NCBI RefSeq assembly: GCF_000379625.1
Contig: NZ_KB903229.1
Span: 352,247 to 416,246, forward strand
Length of the DNA: 64,000 bases
From: Actinomycetospora chiangmaiensis DSM 45062
GTDB lineage: Bacteria; Actinomycetota; Actinomycetes; Mycobacteriales; Pseudonocardiaceae
Direction of reading: 5' to 3'
This document shows, one piece after another, positions 21,197-27,409 of the stretch; the first letter of the stretch is position 1, and each line of letters opens with the position of its first letter. Below the pieces are notes generated by a model, which was given only the letters and a program-made list of their open reading frames with translations, was not told the DNA's origin and did not search any database. Both the position numbers and the translations under genes were made by a program.

Positions 21197-21622
21197 GTGA
21201 TCACTCGTGCGCTGGTCGCCGCCTCGTTCCTCGCTGCTCTGATCGGCCTGCTCCCCACGGCCGCTTGCGCGGGGCCGGGCGCACCCGCCGCCGGGACCGT
21301 GACGTCCGTCGCAACGGCCGTGCCCGGGTCGCAGTCCGGGCTCCCGGTGCGGGCGCTGTCGGCCCTGCCGTCGCAGGTGACCGACACCGTGCGACTCGTC
21401 CGGCGCGGCGGCCCGTACCCGTCCGGTCGCGACGGGATCGTCTTCGGCAACCGCGAGCGCCTCCTCCCGGCGCAGCCGAGCGGCTACTACCACGAGTACA
21501 CCGTCCCGACGCCGGGCTCGTCGGACCGCGGCGCCCGGCGGATCGTCACGGGCTCGCGGGGCGAGTACTACTACTCGGGTGATCACTACGGGAGTTTCGT
21601 CGTCGTGGACGTGAGCCGATGA
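21197..21622 (+). CDS. Secreted guanyl-specific ribonuclease (RNase Sa/barnase-like)
   Basis: The 141-residue protein has a signal peptide (ITRALVAASFLAALIGLLPTA, possible cleavage after ACA). The mature domain carries the microbial N1/T1/barnase fold signatures. The catalytic triad maps to Glu100 in YHEYTVPTPG, Arg115 in RGARRIV and His130 in GDHYGSF. The Glu-to-Arg spacing of 15 residues equals that of RNase Sa. It should cleave single-stranded RNA 3' to guanosine outside the cell. The start is the GTG at 21197. The stop overlaps the start of a barstar gene, so toxin and inhibitor are translationally coupled. Confidence 0.92.
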   Translation: MITRALVAASFLAALIGLLPTAACAGPGAPAAGTVTSVATAVPGSQSGLPVRALSALPSQVTDTVRLVRRGGPYPSGRDGIVFGNRERLLPAQPSGYYHEYTVPTPGSSDRGARRIVTGSRGEYYYSGDHYGSFVVVDVSR

Positions 21623-21945
21623 CCGACCTGCACGCGGCCACCACCCGTGCCCGGGACCGGGCGCGCACGGTCGGGGTGGTCGCCGAGGCCGCCGACAAGC
21701 AGTCCACGCTCGCCGCGATCGGGCGGGCGCTGCACTTCCCGGACTACGTCGCCGCGAACCTCGACGCCCTCGAGGAGAGCGTCCGCGACCTCTCCTGGCT
21801 GCCGGTGGGGCCGGTGGAGCTCGTCTGGGCCGACGGTCTCCTGCGCGCCGCCGACCCGCCGACCCACCGCGTGATCGGCGAGATCCTCGACGGGGCGAGC
21901 CGCAGCGAGGGCGAGCGTCCGTTCCGCGTGACCCGTGTAGGGTGA
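21619..21945 (+). CDS. Barstar family RNase inhibitor
   Basis: The 108-residue cytoplasmic protein has the barstar pattern: a helix with KQSTLAAIGRALHFPDYVAANLDALEESVRDLSWL, then a beta strand VELVWADG and a C-terminal helix. Its ATG overlaps the RNase stop (ATGA), so inhibitor synthesis is tied to the enzyme and protects the producer cell. The last codons of this gene also contain the presumed -10 element (TAGGGT) of the downstream DAHP-synthase leader. Confidence 0.9.
   Translation: MTDLHAATTRARDRARTVGVVAEAADKQSTLAAIGRALHFPDYVAANLDALEESVRDLSWLPVGPVELVWADGLLRAADPPTHRVIGEILDGASRSEGERPFRVTRVG
21939..21944 (+). promoter_or_regulatory. -10 element of the aroF leader transcript
   Basis: TAGGGT lies six bases before the GTG of the leader peptide, the spacing seen for leaderless mRNAs in actinobacteria. 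It is embedded in the last codons of the barstar gene. No convincing -35 hexamer was found. Confidence 0.5.
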
Positions 21946-21950
21946 TCGCC

Positions 21951-22016
21951 GTGCAGCGCTGGTACCGGTTTACGTGCTCGGCCCGGGAGGGGTCGGCGGG
22001 TAGACCGCTGCGCTAG
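21951..22016 (+). CDS. Aromatic amino acid leader peptide of the DAHP synthase gene
   Basis: This 21-codon frame (GTG start, TAG stop) sits between barstar and the DAHP synthase. It begins VQRWYRFTC, so Trp, Tyr and Phe codons occur at positions 4, 5 and 7. The Phe codon is TTT, which is rare in this genome, where TTC dominates. Such clustering is the hallmark of a ribosome-stalling leader sensing aromatic amino acids. It is probably translated leaderless from the TAGGGT promoter. Hairpins between its stop and the aroF start complete an attenuator. A comparable short leader (aroR) is known before aroF in Corynebacterium. Function is inferred from composition and position. Confidence 0.7.
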   Translation: MQRWYRFTCSAREGSAGRPLR

Positions 22017-22098
22017 ACCCCCGTCCGCGAGCCGATCCCGGCTCGCGTGTCACGACGGCGGGTCGGGCCCGGCTCCTCCTCGTCCCGGAGAGCCCGCC
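22017..22098 (+). promoter_or_regulatory. Attenuator hairpins before aroF
   Basis: A perfect 9-bp stem (22026-22034 with 22039-22047, 4-base loop) starts ten bases after the leader stop. A second structure pairs GGCGGG (22057-22062) with CCCGCC (22093-22098), directly before the aroF ATG. In its loop, CTCC (22073-22076) can pair with the GGAG ribosome site (22087-22090). The layout fits transcription or translation attenuation governed by ribosome position on the leader. Confidence 0.5.
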
Positions 22099-23160
22099 AT
22101 GACCACCCTGGTCGATCACCGACCGCTCGACGGCGCCCGTACGGCCGCCGTCACCCCGCTGCCCTCGCCGGCGCTGCTGCGCCACGAGCTCCCCGCGTCC
22201 GACCGCGTCGCCGCTTCCGTGCACCGCGGCCGCGCCGGCGCCGAGGCGATCCTGCGCGGCGAGGACGACCGGCTGCTCGTCGTCGTCGGCCCGTGCTCGA
22301 TCCACGACGTCGACGCCGCCCGGGAGTACGGCGCGCGCCTGGCCGCCGAGGCGGAGCGGCACGCCGACCGGCTCCACGTCGTCATGCGGACCTACTTCGA
22401 GAAGCCGCGGTCGACGGTCGGGTGGAAGGGTCTGATCAACGACCCGGGTCTCGACGGGTCCTTCGACGTCGCGCGGGGCCTGCGTACGGCCCGGTCGTTG
22501 ATGCTCGACCTGGCGGCGGCGGGCCTGCCGCTGGGCTGCGAGTTCCTCGACCCGATCACCCCGCAGTACCTCGCCGACCTCGTCTCCTGGGGCTCGATCG
22601 GGGCCCGGACGGCGGCGAGCCAGGTGCACCGCCAGCTCGCGAGCGGCCTGTCGATGCCGATCGGGATCAAGAACGGGACCGACGGCGACGTCGGCGTGGC
22701 GATCGATGCGGTCGGCGCGGCCGGGGCGCCGCACGCGTTCATGGGCGTCACACCCGAGGGGCTGGCCGGCCTGATCACCACCACCGGCAACCCCGACGCC
22801 CACCTCATCCTGCGGGGCGGCTCGGCCGGGACCAACTACGACGAGGCGTCCGTCGCGGCCGCCTGCACCGCGCTGGGGGCGAAGGGCCACGCCGGGCGGG
22901 TCGTGGTCGACGCGAGCCACGGCAACTCCGGCAAGGACCACCGGCGCCAGCCCGCCGTCGTCGCCGACCTCGCCCGGCAGCGCGCCGCGGGACGCTCGGT
23001 GGTCGGGGTGATGATCGAGAGCTTCCTCGCCGAGGGTCGCCAGGAGATCGGTCCCGACATGGTGCGCGGCCGCAGCGTCACCGACGGCTGCGTCGGCTGG
23101 GACACGACGGTGGAGCTGTTGGAGACGCTGGCGTCGGCGTCAGCGGTGGTCCCCCGGTGA
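22099..23160 (+). CDS. aroF: 3-deoxy-7-phosphoheptulonate (DAHP) synthase, class I
   Basis: The 353-residue enzyme catalyses condensation of phosphoenolpyruvate and erythrose 4-phosphate, the first step of the shikimate pathway. Family signatures are VVVGPCSIHDVDAAREY, MRTYFEKPRSTVGWKGLINDP, IGIKNGTDGD, HLILRGG and VVDASHGNSGKDH. These are class I (AroFGH type), not the class II plant-type enzyme common in actinobacteria. The GGAG ribosome site lies 8 bases upstream and may be masked by a hairpin. A preceding W-Y-R-F leader peptide implies control by aromatic amino acid supply. No other aromatic biosynthesis genes are adjacent. Confidence 0.95.
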   Translation: MTTLVDHRPLDGARTAAVTPLPSPALLRHELPASDRVAASVHRGRAGAEAILRGEDDRLLVVVGPCSIHDVDAAREYGARLAAEAERHADRLHVVMRTYFEKPRSTVGWKGLINDPGLDGSFDVARGLRTARSLMLDLAAAGLPLGCEFLDPITPQYLADLVSWGSIGARTAASQVHRQLASGLSMPIGIKNGTDGDVGVAIDAVGAAGAPHAFMGVTPEGLAGLITTTGNPDAHLILRGGSAGTNYDEASVAAACTALGAKGHAGRVVVDASHGNSGKDHRRQPAVVADLARQRAAGRSVVGVMIESFLAEGRQEIGPDMVRGRSVTDGCVGWDTTVELLETLASASAVVPR

Positions 23161-23191: not shown

Positions 23192-23277
23192 ATCGCGGTG
23201 TGGGTCTGCACCGATTCCGTGACGTAGGCCCGGGTGGGAAGCGCCATCGTCGGGAAACCGGACCGCGCTGACCGCTC

Positions 23278-23283
23278 TACGAT
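23278..23283 (+). promoter_or_regulatory. -10 element of mutA (leaderless)
   Basis: TACGAT is followed by seven bases and the mutA ATG. This is the canonical spacing of a leaderless actinobacterial promoter, and no ribosome site precedes the ATG. Confidence 0.5.
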
Positions 23284-23290
23284 CCCGGCC

Positions 23291-25201
23291 ATGACAGCAC
23301 CGGAGGCGCCCGAGGAGCTCGTGCTCGCCGGCGAGTTCCCGACGCCGACGCGCGACGCGTGGCGGGACCTCGTCGCGGGCGTGCTCGCGAAGTCCGGGCG
23401 GGAGGTCGACCCGGCCGACGCCGAGGCGGCGCTGCGCACCCCCACCGACGACGGGTTCGGGATCGCCGCGCTCTACACCGCCGACGACGCCCCCGGCGTG
23501 CCGACCGGGTCGCCGGGACTCCCGCCCTTCACGCGGGCGTCCCGGCCGGAGGGCCACGTCGCCGACGGCTGGTACCGGCGCCAGCGCCACGCGCTGACCG
23601 ACCTCGAGGGCGCCCACGACGTCGTCATGGCCGAGCTGGAGAACGGTGTCTCCTCGCTCTGGCTGGTGCTCGGCGAGGCGGGCGGCCCCGCCGTCGACGC
23701 GCTGCCGCGGCTCCTCGAGGGCGTGTACCTCGACCTCGCGCCGATCGCGCTGGAGGCCGGCCGGGACACCCCCGAGGCCGCCGACGCGCTGCTGGCGCTC
23801 GCGGCCGACCAGGGGGTGACCGGCGACCTCGGTGGCTCGCTCGGGTACGACCCGCTGCTCGCGCGCACCCGCGGTGGCGCGGCGCTGACCGACGCGTACC
23901 GCTCGTCCCTCGTCGAGCACGCCCGGGCGGCCGCCGAGAAGCACCCGCACCTGGCGACCGTCGTGGCCGACGGTCTGCCGTACCACGAGGCGGGCGGCTC
24001 GGACGGCCAGGAGCTCGGGGCCGCGCTGGCCGCCGGTCTCCACGCCGTCCGACTCCTGAACGACGCCGGGCTGTCGGTGGACGACGCCTTCGCCCGCGTC
24101 GAGTTCCGGTTCGCGGCGACCGCCGACCAGTTCGCCACGCTGGCGAAGCTGCGGGCCGCGCGCCGGTGCTGGGACCGGATCGGCTCGGTCGCCGGTGCTT
24201 CGGACACGCAGCGCGGCGGAGCTGGACCATCGGGTGCGGCGGCCCGCGCGATGCGCACCCACGCGGTGACCTCGCCGGCGATGCTGACCGGCCGCGACCC
24301 CTGGGTGAACATCCTGCGCACCACGGTCGCCGCCGTCGGGGCCGGGCTCGGCGGGGCGGACGCCGTCACCGTGCTGCCGTTCGACTCCGTCCTCGGCCTG
24401 CCCGACGACTTCTCCCGCCGCGTCGCCCGCAACACCCAGGCGCTGCTGCTCGAGGAGTCCCACCTCGCACACGTCATCGACCCGGCGGGCGGCTCCTGGT
24501 ACGTCGAGTCGCTGACCGACGCGCTCGCCCACGCCGCGTGGGACGTCTTCACCGGCATCGAGCGCGACGGGGGCATCGAGGCCGTTCTCGACGACGGGTC
24601 GCTCGCAGCGGCCCTCGAGGAGACGTGGACCGCGCGCGCCGACCGGATCGCGCACCGGAAGGACCCGATCACCGGCGTCAGCGAGTTCCCGAACCTGCAC
24701 GAGACCCTCCCGACCCGCACCGCCCCGCCGTCGGGAACGGGCGATGCCGAGGGCGGGCTGCCGCGGCGCCGCTACGCGCAGGTCTTCGAGGACCTGCGCG
24801 ACCGGGCCGACGCCGCCGCTGCGTCCGGGTCCCGTCCCACCGCGTTCCTCGCGACCCTCGGAGCGCTCGCGCAGTACACCGCGCGGGTGTCCTTCGCGAC
24901 GAACCTGCTCCACGCCGGCGGCATCGACGTCACCGCGGGCCCGGGCGGCACCGACGTCGACGCGATCGTCGCCGCGTTCCGGTCGGCCGGGACGTCCGTC
25001 GCCGTGATCGCGTCCTCGGACAAGGTCTACGCCGAGCACGCGGTACCGCTCGCGCAGGCGCTGGCCGCGGCCGGGGCGACCCGGATCGTGCTGGCGGGAT
25101 CGCCGAAGGCGCTGGACGATGACGCCCTGACCGGGCATCTGTACACCGGGTGCGACGCCGCGGCGCTGCTCACCGACCTGCTCGACGAGCTGGGGGCCTG
25201 A
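23291..25201 (+). CDS. mutA: Methylmalonyl-CoA mutase, small (beta) subunit
   Basis: The 636-residue protein has the MutA architecture: an N-terminal segment (LAGEFPTPTRDAWRDLV), the TIM-barrel region including RTPTDDGFGIAALYTADDAPG, FRATADQFA-like and NTQALLLEESHLAHVIDPAGGSWYVE motifs, and a degenerate C-terminal cobalamin-like domain that lacks DxHxxG. It is the non-catalytic partner that stabilises MutB. The ATG at 23291 fits the leaderless -10; an upstream GTG at 23234 is not needed. It is followed three bases after its stop by mutB, so the two are co-transcribed. The heterodimer interconverts (R)-methylmalonyl-CoA and succinyl-CoA. Confidence 0.95.
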   Translation: MTAPEAPEELVLAGEFPTPTRDAWRDLVAGVLAKSGREVDPADAEAALRTPTDDGFGIAALYTADDAPGVPTGSPGLPPFTRASRPEGHVADGWYRRQRHALTDLEGAHDVVMAELENGVSSLWLVLGEAGGPAVDALPRLLEGVYLDLAPIALEAGRDTPEAADALLALAADQGVTGDLGGSLGYDPLLARTRGGAALTDAYRSSLVEHARAAAEKHPHLATVVADGLPYHEAGGSDGQELGAALAAGLHAVRLLNDAGLSVDDAFARVEFRFAATADQFATLAKLRAARRCWDRIGSVAGASDTQRGGAGPSGAAARAMRTHAVTSPAMLTGRDPWVNILRTTVAAVGAGLGGADAVTVLPFDSVLGLPDDFSRRVARNTQALLLEESHLAHVIDPAGGSWYVESLTDALAHAAWDVFTGIERDGGIEAVLDDGSLAAALEETWTARADRIAHRKDPITGVSEFPNLHETLPTRTAPPSGTGDAEGGLPRRRYAQVFEDLRDRADAAAASGSRPTAFLATLGALAQYTARVSFATNLLHAGGIDVTAGPGGTDVDAIVAAFRSAGTSVAVIASSDKVYAEHAVPLAQALAAAGATRIVLAGSPKALDDDALTGHLYTGCDAAALLTDLLDELGA

Positions 25202-25204
25202 ACC

Positions 25205-27409
25205 ATGAGCATCGGATCGTTCGCCGACGTCGAGCTCGGCACGCCGTCCGGGGACGGCGACTGGACCGCCGCGCTGCACGAGGCGACCGGGAAGGACGCC
25301 GACGACCTGCTCTGGGAGACCCCCGAGGGCATCGGCGTCAAGCCGCTCTACACAGCCGCCGACACCGAGGGCCTCGACTTCCTGGCGACCCTGCCCGGGC
25401 TGCCGCCGTTCCTGCGCGGGCCCTACCCGACGATGTACCGGACCCAGCCGTGGACGGTGCGCCAGTACGCCGGGTTCTCCACCGCCAAGGAGTCGAACGC
25501 CTTCTACCGGCGCAACCTCGCCGCCGGGCAGAAGGGCCTGTCGGTCGCATTCGACCTGCCGACCCACCGGGGCTACGACTCGGACAACCCCCGCGTGTCC
25601 GGCGACGTCGGCATGGCCGGTGTGTCGATCGACTCGATCCTCGACATGCGGCAGCTCTTCGACGGCATCCCGCTGGACCGGATGTCGGTGTCGATGACCA
25701 TGAACGGGGCCGTGCTCCCCGTGATGGCGCTCTACGTGGCCGCGGCCGAGGAGCAGGGCGTCGCGCCCGAGCAGCTCGCCGGGACCATCCAGAACGACAT
25801 CCTCAAGGAGTTCATGGTCCGCAACACCTACATCTACCCGCCCAAGCCCTCGATGCAGATCATCTCGGACATCTTCGCGTTCACCTCGCAGAAGATGCCG
25901 AAGTTCAACTCGATCTCCATCTCCGGCTACCACATCCAGGAGGCCGGGGCCTCGGCCGACCTGGAGCTCGCGTACACCCTCGCCGACGGCGTGGAGTACC
26001 TGCGGGCCGGGCGGGACGCGGGCCTCGACGTCGACAGGTTCGCGCCGCGGCTGTCGTTCTTCTGGGGCATCGGCATGAACTACTTCATGGAGATCGCCAA
26101 GATGCGGGCCGCGCGCCTGCTCTGGGCGAAGCTCGTGAAGGGCTTCGGCGCGAAGAACGACAAGTCGCTCTCGCTGCGCACCCACTCGCAGACCTCCGGC
26201 TGGTCGCTGACCGCACAGGACGTCTACAACAACGTCGTCCGCACCTGCATCGAGGCGATGGCCGCGACCCAGGGGCACACCCAGTCGCTGCACACCAACG
26301 CCCTCGACGAGGCGCTCGCGCTGCCCACCGACTTCTCCGCCCGTATCGCGCGCAACACCCAGCTCCTGCTGCAGCAGGAGTCGGGGACCACCCGGACCGT
26401 GGACCCGTGGGGTGGCTCGGCGTACGTCGAGCGCCTGACCCGGGAGCTCGCGGGCCGGGCGTGGGCGCACATCGAGGAGGTCGAGAACACCGGCGGCATG
26501 GCCAGGGCCATCGACGAGGGCCTGCCGAAGATGCGCATCGAGGAGGCCGCGGCCCGCACCCAGGCGCGGATCGACTCCGGACGTCAGGCGCTGATCGGGG
26601 TCAACAAGTACCCGCTGCTCGGCGGCGAGGACGTCGAGGTCCTCAAGGTCGACAACGCCGACGTGCTCCGTCAGCAGGTCGCGCGCCTCGCTGACCTGCG
26701 GGACGGCCGCGACGCCCCAGCGGTGGAGTCGGCGCTGACCGCGCTGACGAATGCGGCACAGTCGGCGCAGGACGGTTCGCGCGGTTCCGAGCTCGACGGC
26801 AACCTGCTCAAGCTCGCGATCGACGCCGCCCGGGTGCACGCCTCGGTCGGCGAGATCTCCGACGCGTTGGAGAAGGTCTACGGCCGTCACCGCTCGGACG
26901 TCCGGACGATCTCCGGGGTCTACCGTGACGAGGTGGGCGAGTCGGCGGGGGTTGATGCAGCACGGTCGGCGGCCGCGGCGTTCGAGGAGGCCGAGGGTCG
27001 GCGTCCCCGCATCCTCGTCGCGAAGATGGGCCAGGACGGCCACGACCGCGGCCAGAAGGTCATCGCGACCGCCTTCGCCGACCTCGGTTTCGACGTCGAC
27101 GTGGGCCCGCTGTTCCAGACCCCCGAGGAGGTCGCACGCCAGGCCGTCGAGGCCGACGTGCACGTCGTCGGGGTGTCGTCGCTGGCCGCCGGGCACCTCA
27201 CGCTCGTCCCGGCGCTGCGCGACGCGCTGGCCGAGCTGGGCGCCTCCGAGATCCTCATCGTCGCCGGCGGCGTCATCCCGCCGGGCGACTACGAGGAGCT
27301 CTACGCCGGCGGTGCCGCGGCGATCTTCGGGCCGGGCACCGTGATCGCGGACGCGGCGCAGGAACTGCTGGGTCAGCTGTCGCAGAAGCTGGGCCACGCG
27401 ACGTCCTGA
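25205..27409 (+). CDS. mutB: Methylmalonyl-CoA mutase, large (alpha) catalytic subunit
   Basis: The 734-residue catalytic subunit has the full set of mutase motifs: [43 protein letters not shown], the barrel with [29 protein letters not shown], and a C-terminal B12-binding domain [16 protein letters not shown]. The DxHxxG histidine near residue 613 becomes the lower cobalt ligand. Adenosylcobalamin-dependent rearrangement of methylmalonyl-CoA links odd-chain, branched-chain and propionyl-CoA metabolism to succinyl-CoA. It follows mutA directly. The chaperone gene meaB lies 3.5 kb downstream, beyond a convergent helicase gene. Confidence 0.97.

Follow-up and report, generated by a model that had tools for sequence, protein, structure and literature searches.

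A putative leaderless attenuator with aromatic codons and coevolving hairpins upstream of class I DAHP synthase genes in Actinomycetospora and related Actinobacteria

The aroF locus and its leader region

We analyzed the region upstream of the aroF gene in a window (the whole stretch of 64,000 nucleotides studied here) from Actinomycetospora chiangmaiensis DSM 45062, whose genome comprises 5.86 Mb. The following features were recognized, in the order of their positions:

21197-21945, + strand: barnase/barstar-like gene pair, an RNase-like gene followed by a barstar-like inhibitor gene (Pfam Ribonuclease and Barstar)
21938-21943, + strand: TAGGGT, -10-like box, ending 7 bases 5' of the GTG
21951-22016, + strand: putative leader peptide gene, VQRWYRFTCSAREGSAGRPLR, 21 codons, GTG start, TAG stop at 22014-22016 (sequence, ORF list, homologues)
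21951-21957, + strand: 5' arm of helix P1, GTGCAGC, pairing with 22007-22013 (90% of cells paired)
21960-21971, + strand: candidate regulatory codons TGG TAC CGG TTT (W-Y-R-F); W, Y and F are start-proximal in 74 of 76 leaders, the W and F numbers being partly forced by the parsing and search patterns
21967-21973, + strand: 5' arm of helix P2, GGTTTAC, including the Phe codon, pairing with 22000-22006 (80% of cells paired)
21978-21984, + strand: segment A, TCGGCCC, pairing with segment B (helix P3) or with segment C
21985-21996, + strand: P3 loop GGGAG and segment B GGGTCGG, 5' side of an antiterminator-like helix, coevolving with the bases past the stop
22000-22006, + strand: 3' arm of P2, GTAGACC (window fold, 28-leader alignment)
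22007-22013, + strand: 3' arm of P1, GCTGCGC (window fold, 28-leader alignment)
22017-22028, + strand: segment N past the stop, 3' side of the antiterminator-like helix (coevolution, folding model)
22026-22047, + strand: hairpin C:D, CGCGAGCCG-ATCC-CGGCTCGCG, with no T-run after it (fold, sequence)
22037-22045, + strand: segment D, CCCGGCTCG, pairing with C or with 22059-22067 (coevolution)
22057-22067, + strand: segment S5', GGCGGGTCGGG, 5' arm of the Shine-Dalgarno hairpin or partner of D
22087-22098, + strand: Shine-Dalgarno GGAG (22087-22090) and S3' arm CCCGCC (22093-22098) (coevolution of hairpin S)
22099-23160, + strand: aroF, class I DAHP synthase, the proposed regulated gene (PF00793, 279 bits; TIGR00034, 459 bits)

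A preliminary description of this DNA had placed a short leader frame and hairpins before a class I DAHP synthase gene, and both profile matches agreed with this identity of the downstream gene. The 21-codon GTG frame with early aromatic codons was found as described there (W, Y and F are codons 4, 5 and 7, with R as codon 6); the distance between TAGGGT and the GTG, previously given as six bases, is in fact seven. The Phe codon had rightly been called rare: it is TTT, and TTC accounts for all 69 Phe codons of seven other frames in the window. In the homologous leaders described below, the last Phe codon, which belongs to helix P2, was TTT in 87 of 90.

A TANNNT box ended 6, 7 or 8 bases 5' of the start in all 76 parsed leaders (17, 55 and 4 leaders, respectively), compared with 6 further TANNNT boxes elsewhere in the 40 upstream bases of all these leaders together. 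The covariance model used for part of the search (R1, see below) includes the columns of the box, and the leaders found by it lean towards having one; those found via DNA similarity or via aroF have no such lean. A box-to-start spacing of this size is expected when transcription begins at the start codon, and the position of the box suggests a leaderless transcript whose 5' end lies at or beside the GTG. In the window, the box sits inside the final codons of the barstar-like gene, and a further in-frame GTG at 21942 overlaps the stop of that gene. Coupling of the leader to the barstar stop via this GTG was considered and rejected, since relatives keep the start at 21951 despite differing upstream sequence; conservation thus points to 21951 as the leader start.

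The region 21936-22110 folded better than 199 of 200 shuffled sequences (z = -3.48). From 5' to 3', its elements are P1, P2, P3 (formed by A and B), the stop, N, C, a loop, D and finally hairpin S before aroF. The perfect 9-bp hairpin noted previously past the stop was recovered (22026-22034 with 22039-22047, loop ATCC). Segment A was CCGGCCC in 69 and TCGGCCC in 3 of the 76 leaders, segment B was GGGTCGG or GGGCCGG in 46, and segment C began with GAGCCGG in 70 (GAGCCGA in the window); D has the general form CCGGCTC and P2 that of GGTTT with RACC, and the loop between C and D varied from 2 to 52 bases. The P3 loop and B are complementary to N, and A is complementary to C, which together gives one long helix that excludes both P1-P3 and C:D. 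A structure masking the GGAG had also been proposed, and this was borne out in part: GGCGGG (22057-22062) can pair with CCCGCC (22093-22098) next to the ATG and thereby enclose the GGAG; the exact form of hairpin S in the window is uncertain because the minimum-energy fold pairs most of GGCGGG with 22016-22025 instead.

Two further observations concern the surroundings. On the 3' side of aroF, two adjacent genes with methylmalonyl-CoA mutase domains are present (23234-27409, + strand), and a B12-binding domain match occurs only in the second. Besides, stretches of 23-68 bases resembling parts of 22033-22099 were found at four other places in the genome.

Conservation within the genus

In seven congeners, 63-66 of the 66 leader bases and 21-22 of the 22 third codon positions agreed with the window, compared with 69-78% identity at the third positions of conserved residues in aroF; the bases directly 3' of the leader stop vary. 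Of the 18 genomes of the genus (G000-G017, the window's own included), 8 had class I aroF, and all eight of these also contained the leader. In the other 10 genomes, a DNA search with the leader returned either nothing or short matches of 19-29 bases. Class II DAHP synthase, in turn, was detected in 17 of the 18 genomes, the exception being a genome with 59% completeness. No clustered aromatic leader was observed in the 450 bases upstream of the class II gene of the window's genome, where a small scan gave three frames of 25-40 codons, none with an aromatic cluster.

On these sequence comparisons, which set a near-invariant leader against diverging third positions of aroF, and on the surveys described below, the leader is not a chance frame. 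It could still be a conserved stretch that plays no regulatory part, with the aroF promoter lying downstream of it. A consensus sigma-70 scan found no promoter in 21850-22150, so none is proven upstream of the leader either. However, such a stretch would have to be conserved far above the third positions of aroF, and the coevolving helices presented below span both the leader and the aroF start. We consider this explanation highly unlikely.

Distribution of the leader across the order

A search with R1, a covariance model built from 28 leaders, matched 55 of 397 genomes of the order, with one match each, in two families; the window's genome likewise gave one match. When 296 genomes of the class were searched, all five matches fell inside the order. 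Parsing of the collected loci yielded 76 distinct homologous leaders, 75 of which were followed by the DAHP synthase motif GPCS. Ten loci were dropped at parsing (L063, L084, L098, L102 and L110-L115); on re-inspection, a leader was recognized in L063, L084 and L102. The remaining seven had none; L110-L115 are weak DNA matches and L098 is an R1 match. A plain DNA search (109 of 297 family genomes at E up to 0.01) was rejected as a leader count, many of its matches being short.

A DNA pattern scan of named genomes gave at least 119 stretches. Among the matches listed, a leader-length frame followed by the DAHP synthase motif was observed in 107 of 119. Six others lay at the end of a stretch, five of them with a recognizable leader and one (L150) chance-like, and the remaining six were also chance-like, making seven chance-like matches in total. 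Tyr was present in 105 of the 107 leaders among the matches listed, and this residue was not forced by the patterns. Genus names, available for 80 of the 119 matches listed, included Actinomycetospora, Nocardia, Rhodococcus, Amycolatopsis, Saccharomonospora, Pseudonocardia, Prauserella, Haloechinothrix, Antrihabitans, Asanoa and Actinoalloteichus, together with a metagenome-assembled genome (MAG) labelled Streptosporangiales; the latter (L137) is a named match that lies, by label, outside the order. The same pattern was also present in Actinomycetospora sp. TBRC 11914 (NZ_JABBND010000001.1), and class I aroF genes with a homologous leader in front of them occur in Pseudonocardia, Amycolatopsis, Saccharomonospora, Nocardia and Rhodococcus.

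Loci chosen solely by their aroF protein, in which the counts of W, Y and F are not forced by search patterns, gave a similar picture. The leader was found in 12 of 15 such loci of relatives (none in L018-L020) and, in the second family, in 29 of 30 loci among the matches listed (170 of 201 genomes match; one leader, that of L259, was recognized by eye). The locus without a leader (L258) carries one of two aroF copies in its genome. In a further set picked to span 16 genera of the second family, all 20 loci possessed the leader. In these two second-family sets, W, Y and F occurred together in 48 of 49 leaders, the exception being L265 with FYF. Thus, the expectation that aromatic codons and stems would be kept in relatives held both within the genus (8 of 8) and in many other genera. 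The frame was open in all lengths seen (19-24 codons between genera), and the aromatic residues and their spacing differed (WYRF, QYWF, YFWF, FYFWF, SFWF). Elements that recurred between genera were an initial QR, PA and an R towards the end.

Could the RNA itself be the sensor, as a riboswitch or a protein-binding RNA, with no role for the frame? The strong structure (z = -3.48) leaves an aptamer possible, as does the result of the Rfam 15 search, which gave no match in the window at 21600-22400 (E up to 1) or in five loci (E up to 0.1). In contrast, the frame, start, stop, aromatic codons and start-proximal box are all conserved, and the frame is kept open across its different lengths, which makes such an RNA very improbable as the explanation.

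Some sequences near these genes deserve mention on their own. The leader-less class I aroF genes of L018 and L019 have GGTTAGGCTTACCT / TTAGGTTAGCCTTACCT sequences upstream, which we take to resemble iron-regulator boxes; judging from this resemblance, these aroF copies may serve siderophore synthesis. A sequence presumably similar to part of an iron-regulator box, GTTAGCCT, also lies directly 5' of the -10-like box in L049, L053 and L055, three of the six parsed leaders of their genus.

Coevolution of alternative helices

The pairing energy between the two partners of the same leader was compared with that obtained with partners from other sequences (5000 permutations). First, the P3 loop and B paired better with their own N (mean -12.95 versus -11.44 kcal/mol; z = -7.1; 0 of 5000 permutations; 62 distinct pairs, L016 left out; control z = 0.7). 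Second, the C-D loop plus D, which is complementary to the 5' arm of S, paired better with the 24 bases before its own Shine-Dalgarno (-17.38 versus -15.52 kcal/mol; z = -6.9; 0 of 5000). D alone gave z = -5.8 with the bases before the Shine-Dalgarno, and no clear coevolution was detected when the C-D loop without D was paired with these bases (z = -1.6; 282 of 5000 permutations). Finally, hairpin S itself showed the strongest signal (-14.86 versus -11.72 kcal/mol; z = -10.1; 0 of 5000). The tests of D and S used 75 rows, with a control z of 1.1. Exchanged partners could also be seen directly, such as CAAGCCG with CGGCUUG, GACCGG with CCGGUC, CCCAGCCG with CGGCUGGG, and GCAGGCCG with CGGUCUGC.

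Because the rows are related, the analysis was repeated on 200 random draws that each kept a single row for each of the 24 genera (90 rows in total). The median z was -4.18 for the P3 loop with N, -4.03 for the loop plus D with S5' and -4.42 for S, with p < 0.05 in 200 of 200 draws for each of these pairings. Three control pairings (the 10 bases after B with N, the loop plus D with the Shine-Dalgarno-to-start stretch, and the P3 loop with the Shine-Dalgarno-to-start stretch) had median z values of 0.53, 0.10 and 0.61, with p < 0.05 in 0, 1 and 0 of 200 draws, respectively. Three pairings therefore coevolve between 24 genera: the antiterminator-like helix, the Shine-Dalgarno hairpin and the pairing that joins both. 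The Shine-Dalgarno is thus enclosed in a hairpin having an alternative upstream partner (the loop plus D, or D alone), and the covarying structure that had been anticipated upstream of class I aroF in relatives is present. On the other hand, pair counting in the 28-sequence alignment revealed no pair changed on both sides in P1, P2, P3 or C:D, because their coding arms hardly vary.

These data also bear on the possibility of an arrest peptide, in which the nascent chain senses free tryptophan or another ligand. TnaC is an arrest peptide of this kind. The near-invariance in the genus of the entire peptide, beyond W, Y and F, and the recurrence of QR, PA and the late R between genera would fit this explanation. 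However, the invariance extends to the third codon positions, which fits an RNA constraint, the aromatic residues and their spacing vary between genera, and the variable P3-loop codon changes together with the post-stop bases. An arrest peptide appears improbable.

Dependence of the fold on ribosome position

We next consider the upstream switch in a sequential folding model, in which the bases under the ribosome were kept unpaired, with a footprint reaching 15 bases past the first base of its P site, and the transcript ended at C (90 leaders). The A:C helix formed in 89 of 90 leaders when the ribosome was stalled on the first of the aromatic codons and in all 90 when it was on the second, compared with 7 of 90 at the stop, 49 of 90 with no ribosome, and none at the last Phe codon, where the ribosome covers A. 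In the window's own leader, A:C formed with a value of 0.78 at Trp and 0.93 at Tyr, compared with 0.16 at Phe and 0.00 at the stop. Within this model, it is well supported that the choice of helix in the upstream switch depends on ribosome position. The view that one leader senses Trp, Tyr and Phe together is suggested by the codon content and weakened for Phe, since the last Phe codon, the sole one in the window's leader, lies too far 3' to free the full helix.

The downstream part of the switch was less clear. Once D was transcribed, A:C at equilibrium stayed in 26 of 90 leaders and C:D had a mean of 0.59, so that the relay would need kinetic trapping. With the transcript extended up to the Shine-Dalgarno, D:S5' was 0.37 in the stalled state versus 0.26 with the ribosome at the stop. 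Equilibrium folding of the full leader left the Shine-Dalgarno with a mean unpaired value of 0.42 at the stop versus 0.45 when stalled at the first aromatic codon; the opening rose by more than 0.1 in 13 of 75 leaders and fell in 3, and in the stalled state C:D was still 0.61 and D:S5' only 0.17. Equilibrium folding was therefore discarded as a proof of the whole relay, as it does not carry the switch to the Shine-Dalgarno. The relay from the switch to the Shine-Dalgarno is suggested by covariation, and for it to operate the early helix would have to last.

Proposed mechanism

Our reading is that the region attenuates aroF through ribosome stalling on a leaderless transcript, responding to a lack of aromatic amino acids and acting mainly at the level of translation (probability roughly 0.55). 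That a ribosome-stalling attenuator of some kind is present, with either output, appears very probable. When aromatic charged tRNAs are plentiful, the ribosome would reach the leader stop, A:B, C:D and the Shine-Dalgarno hairpin would form, and aroF would be poorly expressed. When the ribosome stalls at the W, Y or F codons, P1 and P2 would be covered, and the A-loop-B stretch would pair with the post-stop bases and then with C; with C captured, D would be free to pair with S5' of the Shine-Dalgarno hairpin, and the aroF start would open. This may be written as a relay of six segments, in which 1:2, 3:4 and 5:6 alternate with 2:3 and 4:5. Beyond what was observed directly (conservation, the position of the -10-like box, the coevolution of three helices and, in the model, the ribosome-position dependence of the upstream switch), we infer that the leader is translated, that the ribosome stalls, that control runs in this direction and that the output lies mainly in translation, not in termination. 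Confidence in the full relay is lower because the loop alone reached only z = -1.6 and A:C formed in 49 of 90 leaders with no ribosome. The idea of an attenuator for aromatic shortage, already put forward in the preliminary description, agrees with the conservation, the coevolving helices and the ribosome-position-dependent folding; that description is supported, and it lacked the antiterminator-like helix, its link to the ribosome-binding-site hairpin and the breadth of the leader's distribution.

Relationship to known leaders

The original description of AroR, the leader before aroF in Corynebacterium glutamicum, is reportedly that of Neshat et al. 2014. In the parts of the literature available, we found no description of the leader outside Corynebacterium, and Neshat et al. 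2014 may already mention a wider conservation. According to the available parts of later papers, AroR contains Phe-Tyr-Phe (PMC11802643; PMC4046766), aroF transcription in C. glutamicum rises under Phe limitation whereas Tyr is without effect (PMC11802643), and AroR has been called a translational regulatory leader with control by Phe and Tyr (PMC7356990). Like AroR, the window's leader is short, has aromatic codons and lies directly upstream of a class I DAHP synthase gene. The leader of L265 (probably Corynebacterium, its genus being inferred), MSVQRFYFGGAPVGA..., shares the QR-aromatic start and the gene context and has a TANNNT box 7 bases before its ATG, as recognized by eye; the C. glutamicum leader itself is known here by description. 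Unlike in AroR, W, Y and F occur together in the window's class, a U-tailed terminator is generally absent, and the hairpin around the Shine-Dalgarno coevolves with the hairpin upstream of it. The sensor principle and the gene are the same as for AroR, and the differences lie in the presence of all three aromatic codons and in a probable translational relay.

The region also resembles the trpL-type attenuators of Streptomyces and Corynebacterium, which are described as having a leader peptide with regulatory codons and alternative hairpins, the trpL-type leader of S. lividans being transcribed leaderless (PMC1262725, PMC8079986). The window likewise has a short frame in which codons are clustered for the very amino acids that the controlled pathway makes. 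In contrast to the window, which has no U-run terminator, trpL-type leaders are described with Trp regulatory codons and poly-U terminators (PMC1262725). In the available part of a 2005 survey of Actinobacteria, a trp element is listed and no other aromatic-pathway element, and the survey states that beyond Trp, Cys, Leu/Ilv and ileS T-boxes the amino acid pathways yielded no conserved structures (PMC1262725). The accessible text on eight S. lividans leaders names none for DAHP synthase (PMC8079986), and aroF is not among the Mycobacterium abscessus uORFs named in the part available (nirA, leuA and ilvB; PMC4974804). The ilvB-II motif of Corynebacterium is similar in that a conserved uORF lies in the structured leader of an amino acid gene, and differs in having, as far as its available description goes, branched-chain codons and an intrinsic terminator (PMC10272879).

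As to the proposed output, the region resembles translational attenuators. In erm translational attenuators, a drug-stalled ribosome flips a chain of hairpins and frees the Shine-Dalgarno. The scheme proposed here has the same course, from a stalled ribosome over a hairpin chain to a free Shine-Dalgarno. However, the erm signal is a drug, whereas the codon content of the window's leader points to a shortage of aminoacyl-tRNA, and the proposed chain is longer.

Output of the switch and a second class of leaders

The main competitor of a translational output is classical transcription attenuation, in which C:D would act as a terminator without a U-run or lie in a Rho-dependent region, the antiterminator-like helix would prevent termination, and the Shine-Dalgarno hairpin would be secondary. 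The logic of segments A, B, C and D is that of a four-segment attenuator, and AroR control of C. glutamicum aroF has been described as transcriptional in the available text (PMC11802643). However, the window region yielded no U-tailed terminator-like site, and C:D is not followed by a T-run. Of 75 leaders of the window's class, 9 contained a hairpin with at least four T among the next eight bases. Termination would also leave unexplained both the coevolution of the loop plus D with S5' and the coevolving Shine-Dalgarno hairpin. We regard transcription attenuation as a possible but less probable output than masking of the ribosome-binding site.

Related loci also speak for termination. A second class of leaders (13 loci between L265 and L280, without L268, L270 and L274) has YWRF, YWHF or FYF, an A-loop-B stretch of the form GGCTCCGGGTGGAGCC and often a complementary CACCCGGAGCC past the stop. 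U-tailed hairpins were present in 10 of these 13 loci, as in L277, where AGGCAGTGACC-ACCA-GGTCGCTGCC is followed by TTTCGTC. We take the two classes to have the same sensor and different outputs, namely transcription termination in the second class and, most likely, masking of the ribosome-binding site in the window's class. A broader statement, that an aromatic-sensing leaderless leader has been kept across the order while its output was exchanged between a U-tailed terminator and the six-segment relay, with the TTT codon kept as both sensor and stem, seems to us evenly balanced between true and false.

If the translational attenuator proposed here is real, a control element known from one industrial species would extend to many soil and antibiotic-producing Actinobacteria, including Amycolatopsis, Saccharomonospora, Nocardia and Rhodococcus, and would show how a single leader reads three amino acids. 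Relatives with the same sensor and different outputs would then form a natural pair for testing how transcriptional and translational attenuation evolve into each other, and the leader would be a practical target for raising the supply of aromatic precursors in antibiotic producers.

Individual loci showed additional hairpins between C and D. In L016, the C-D loop itself contains a U-tailed terminator-like hairpin (GGGCAGGA...TCCTGCCCTTCTGTTT), so that this locus looks as though it had the two outputs at once, and other hairpins occur inside the C-D loop of L043, L103 and L104.
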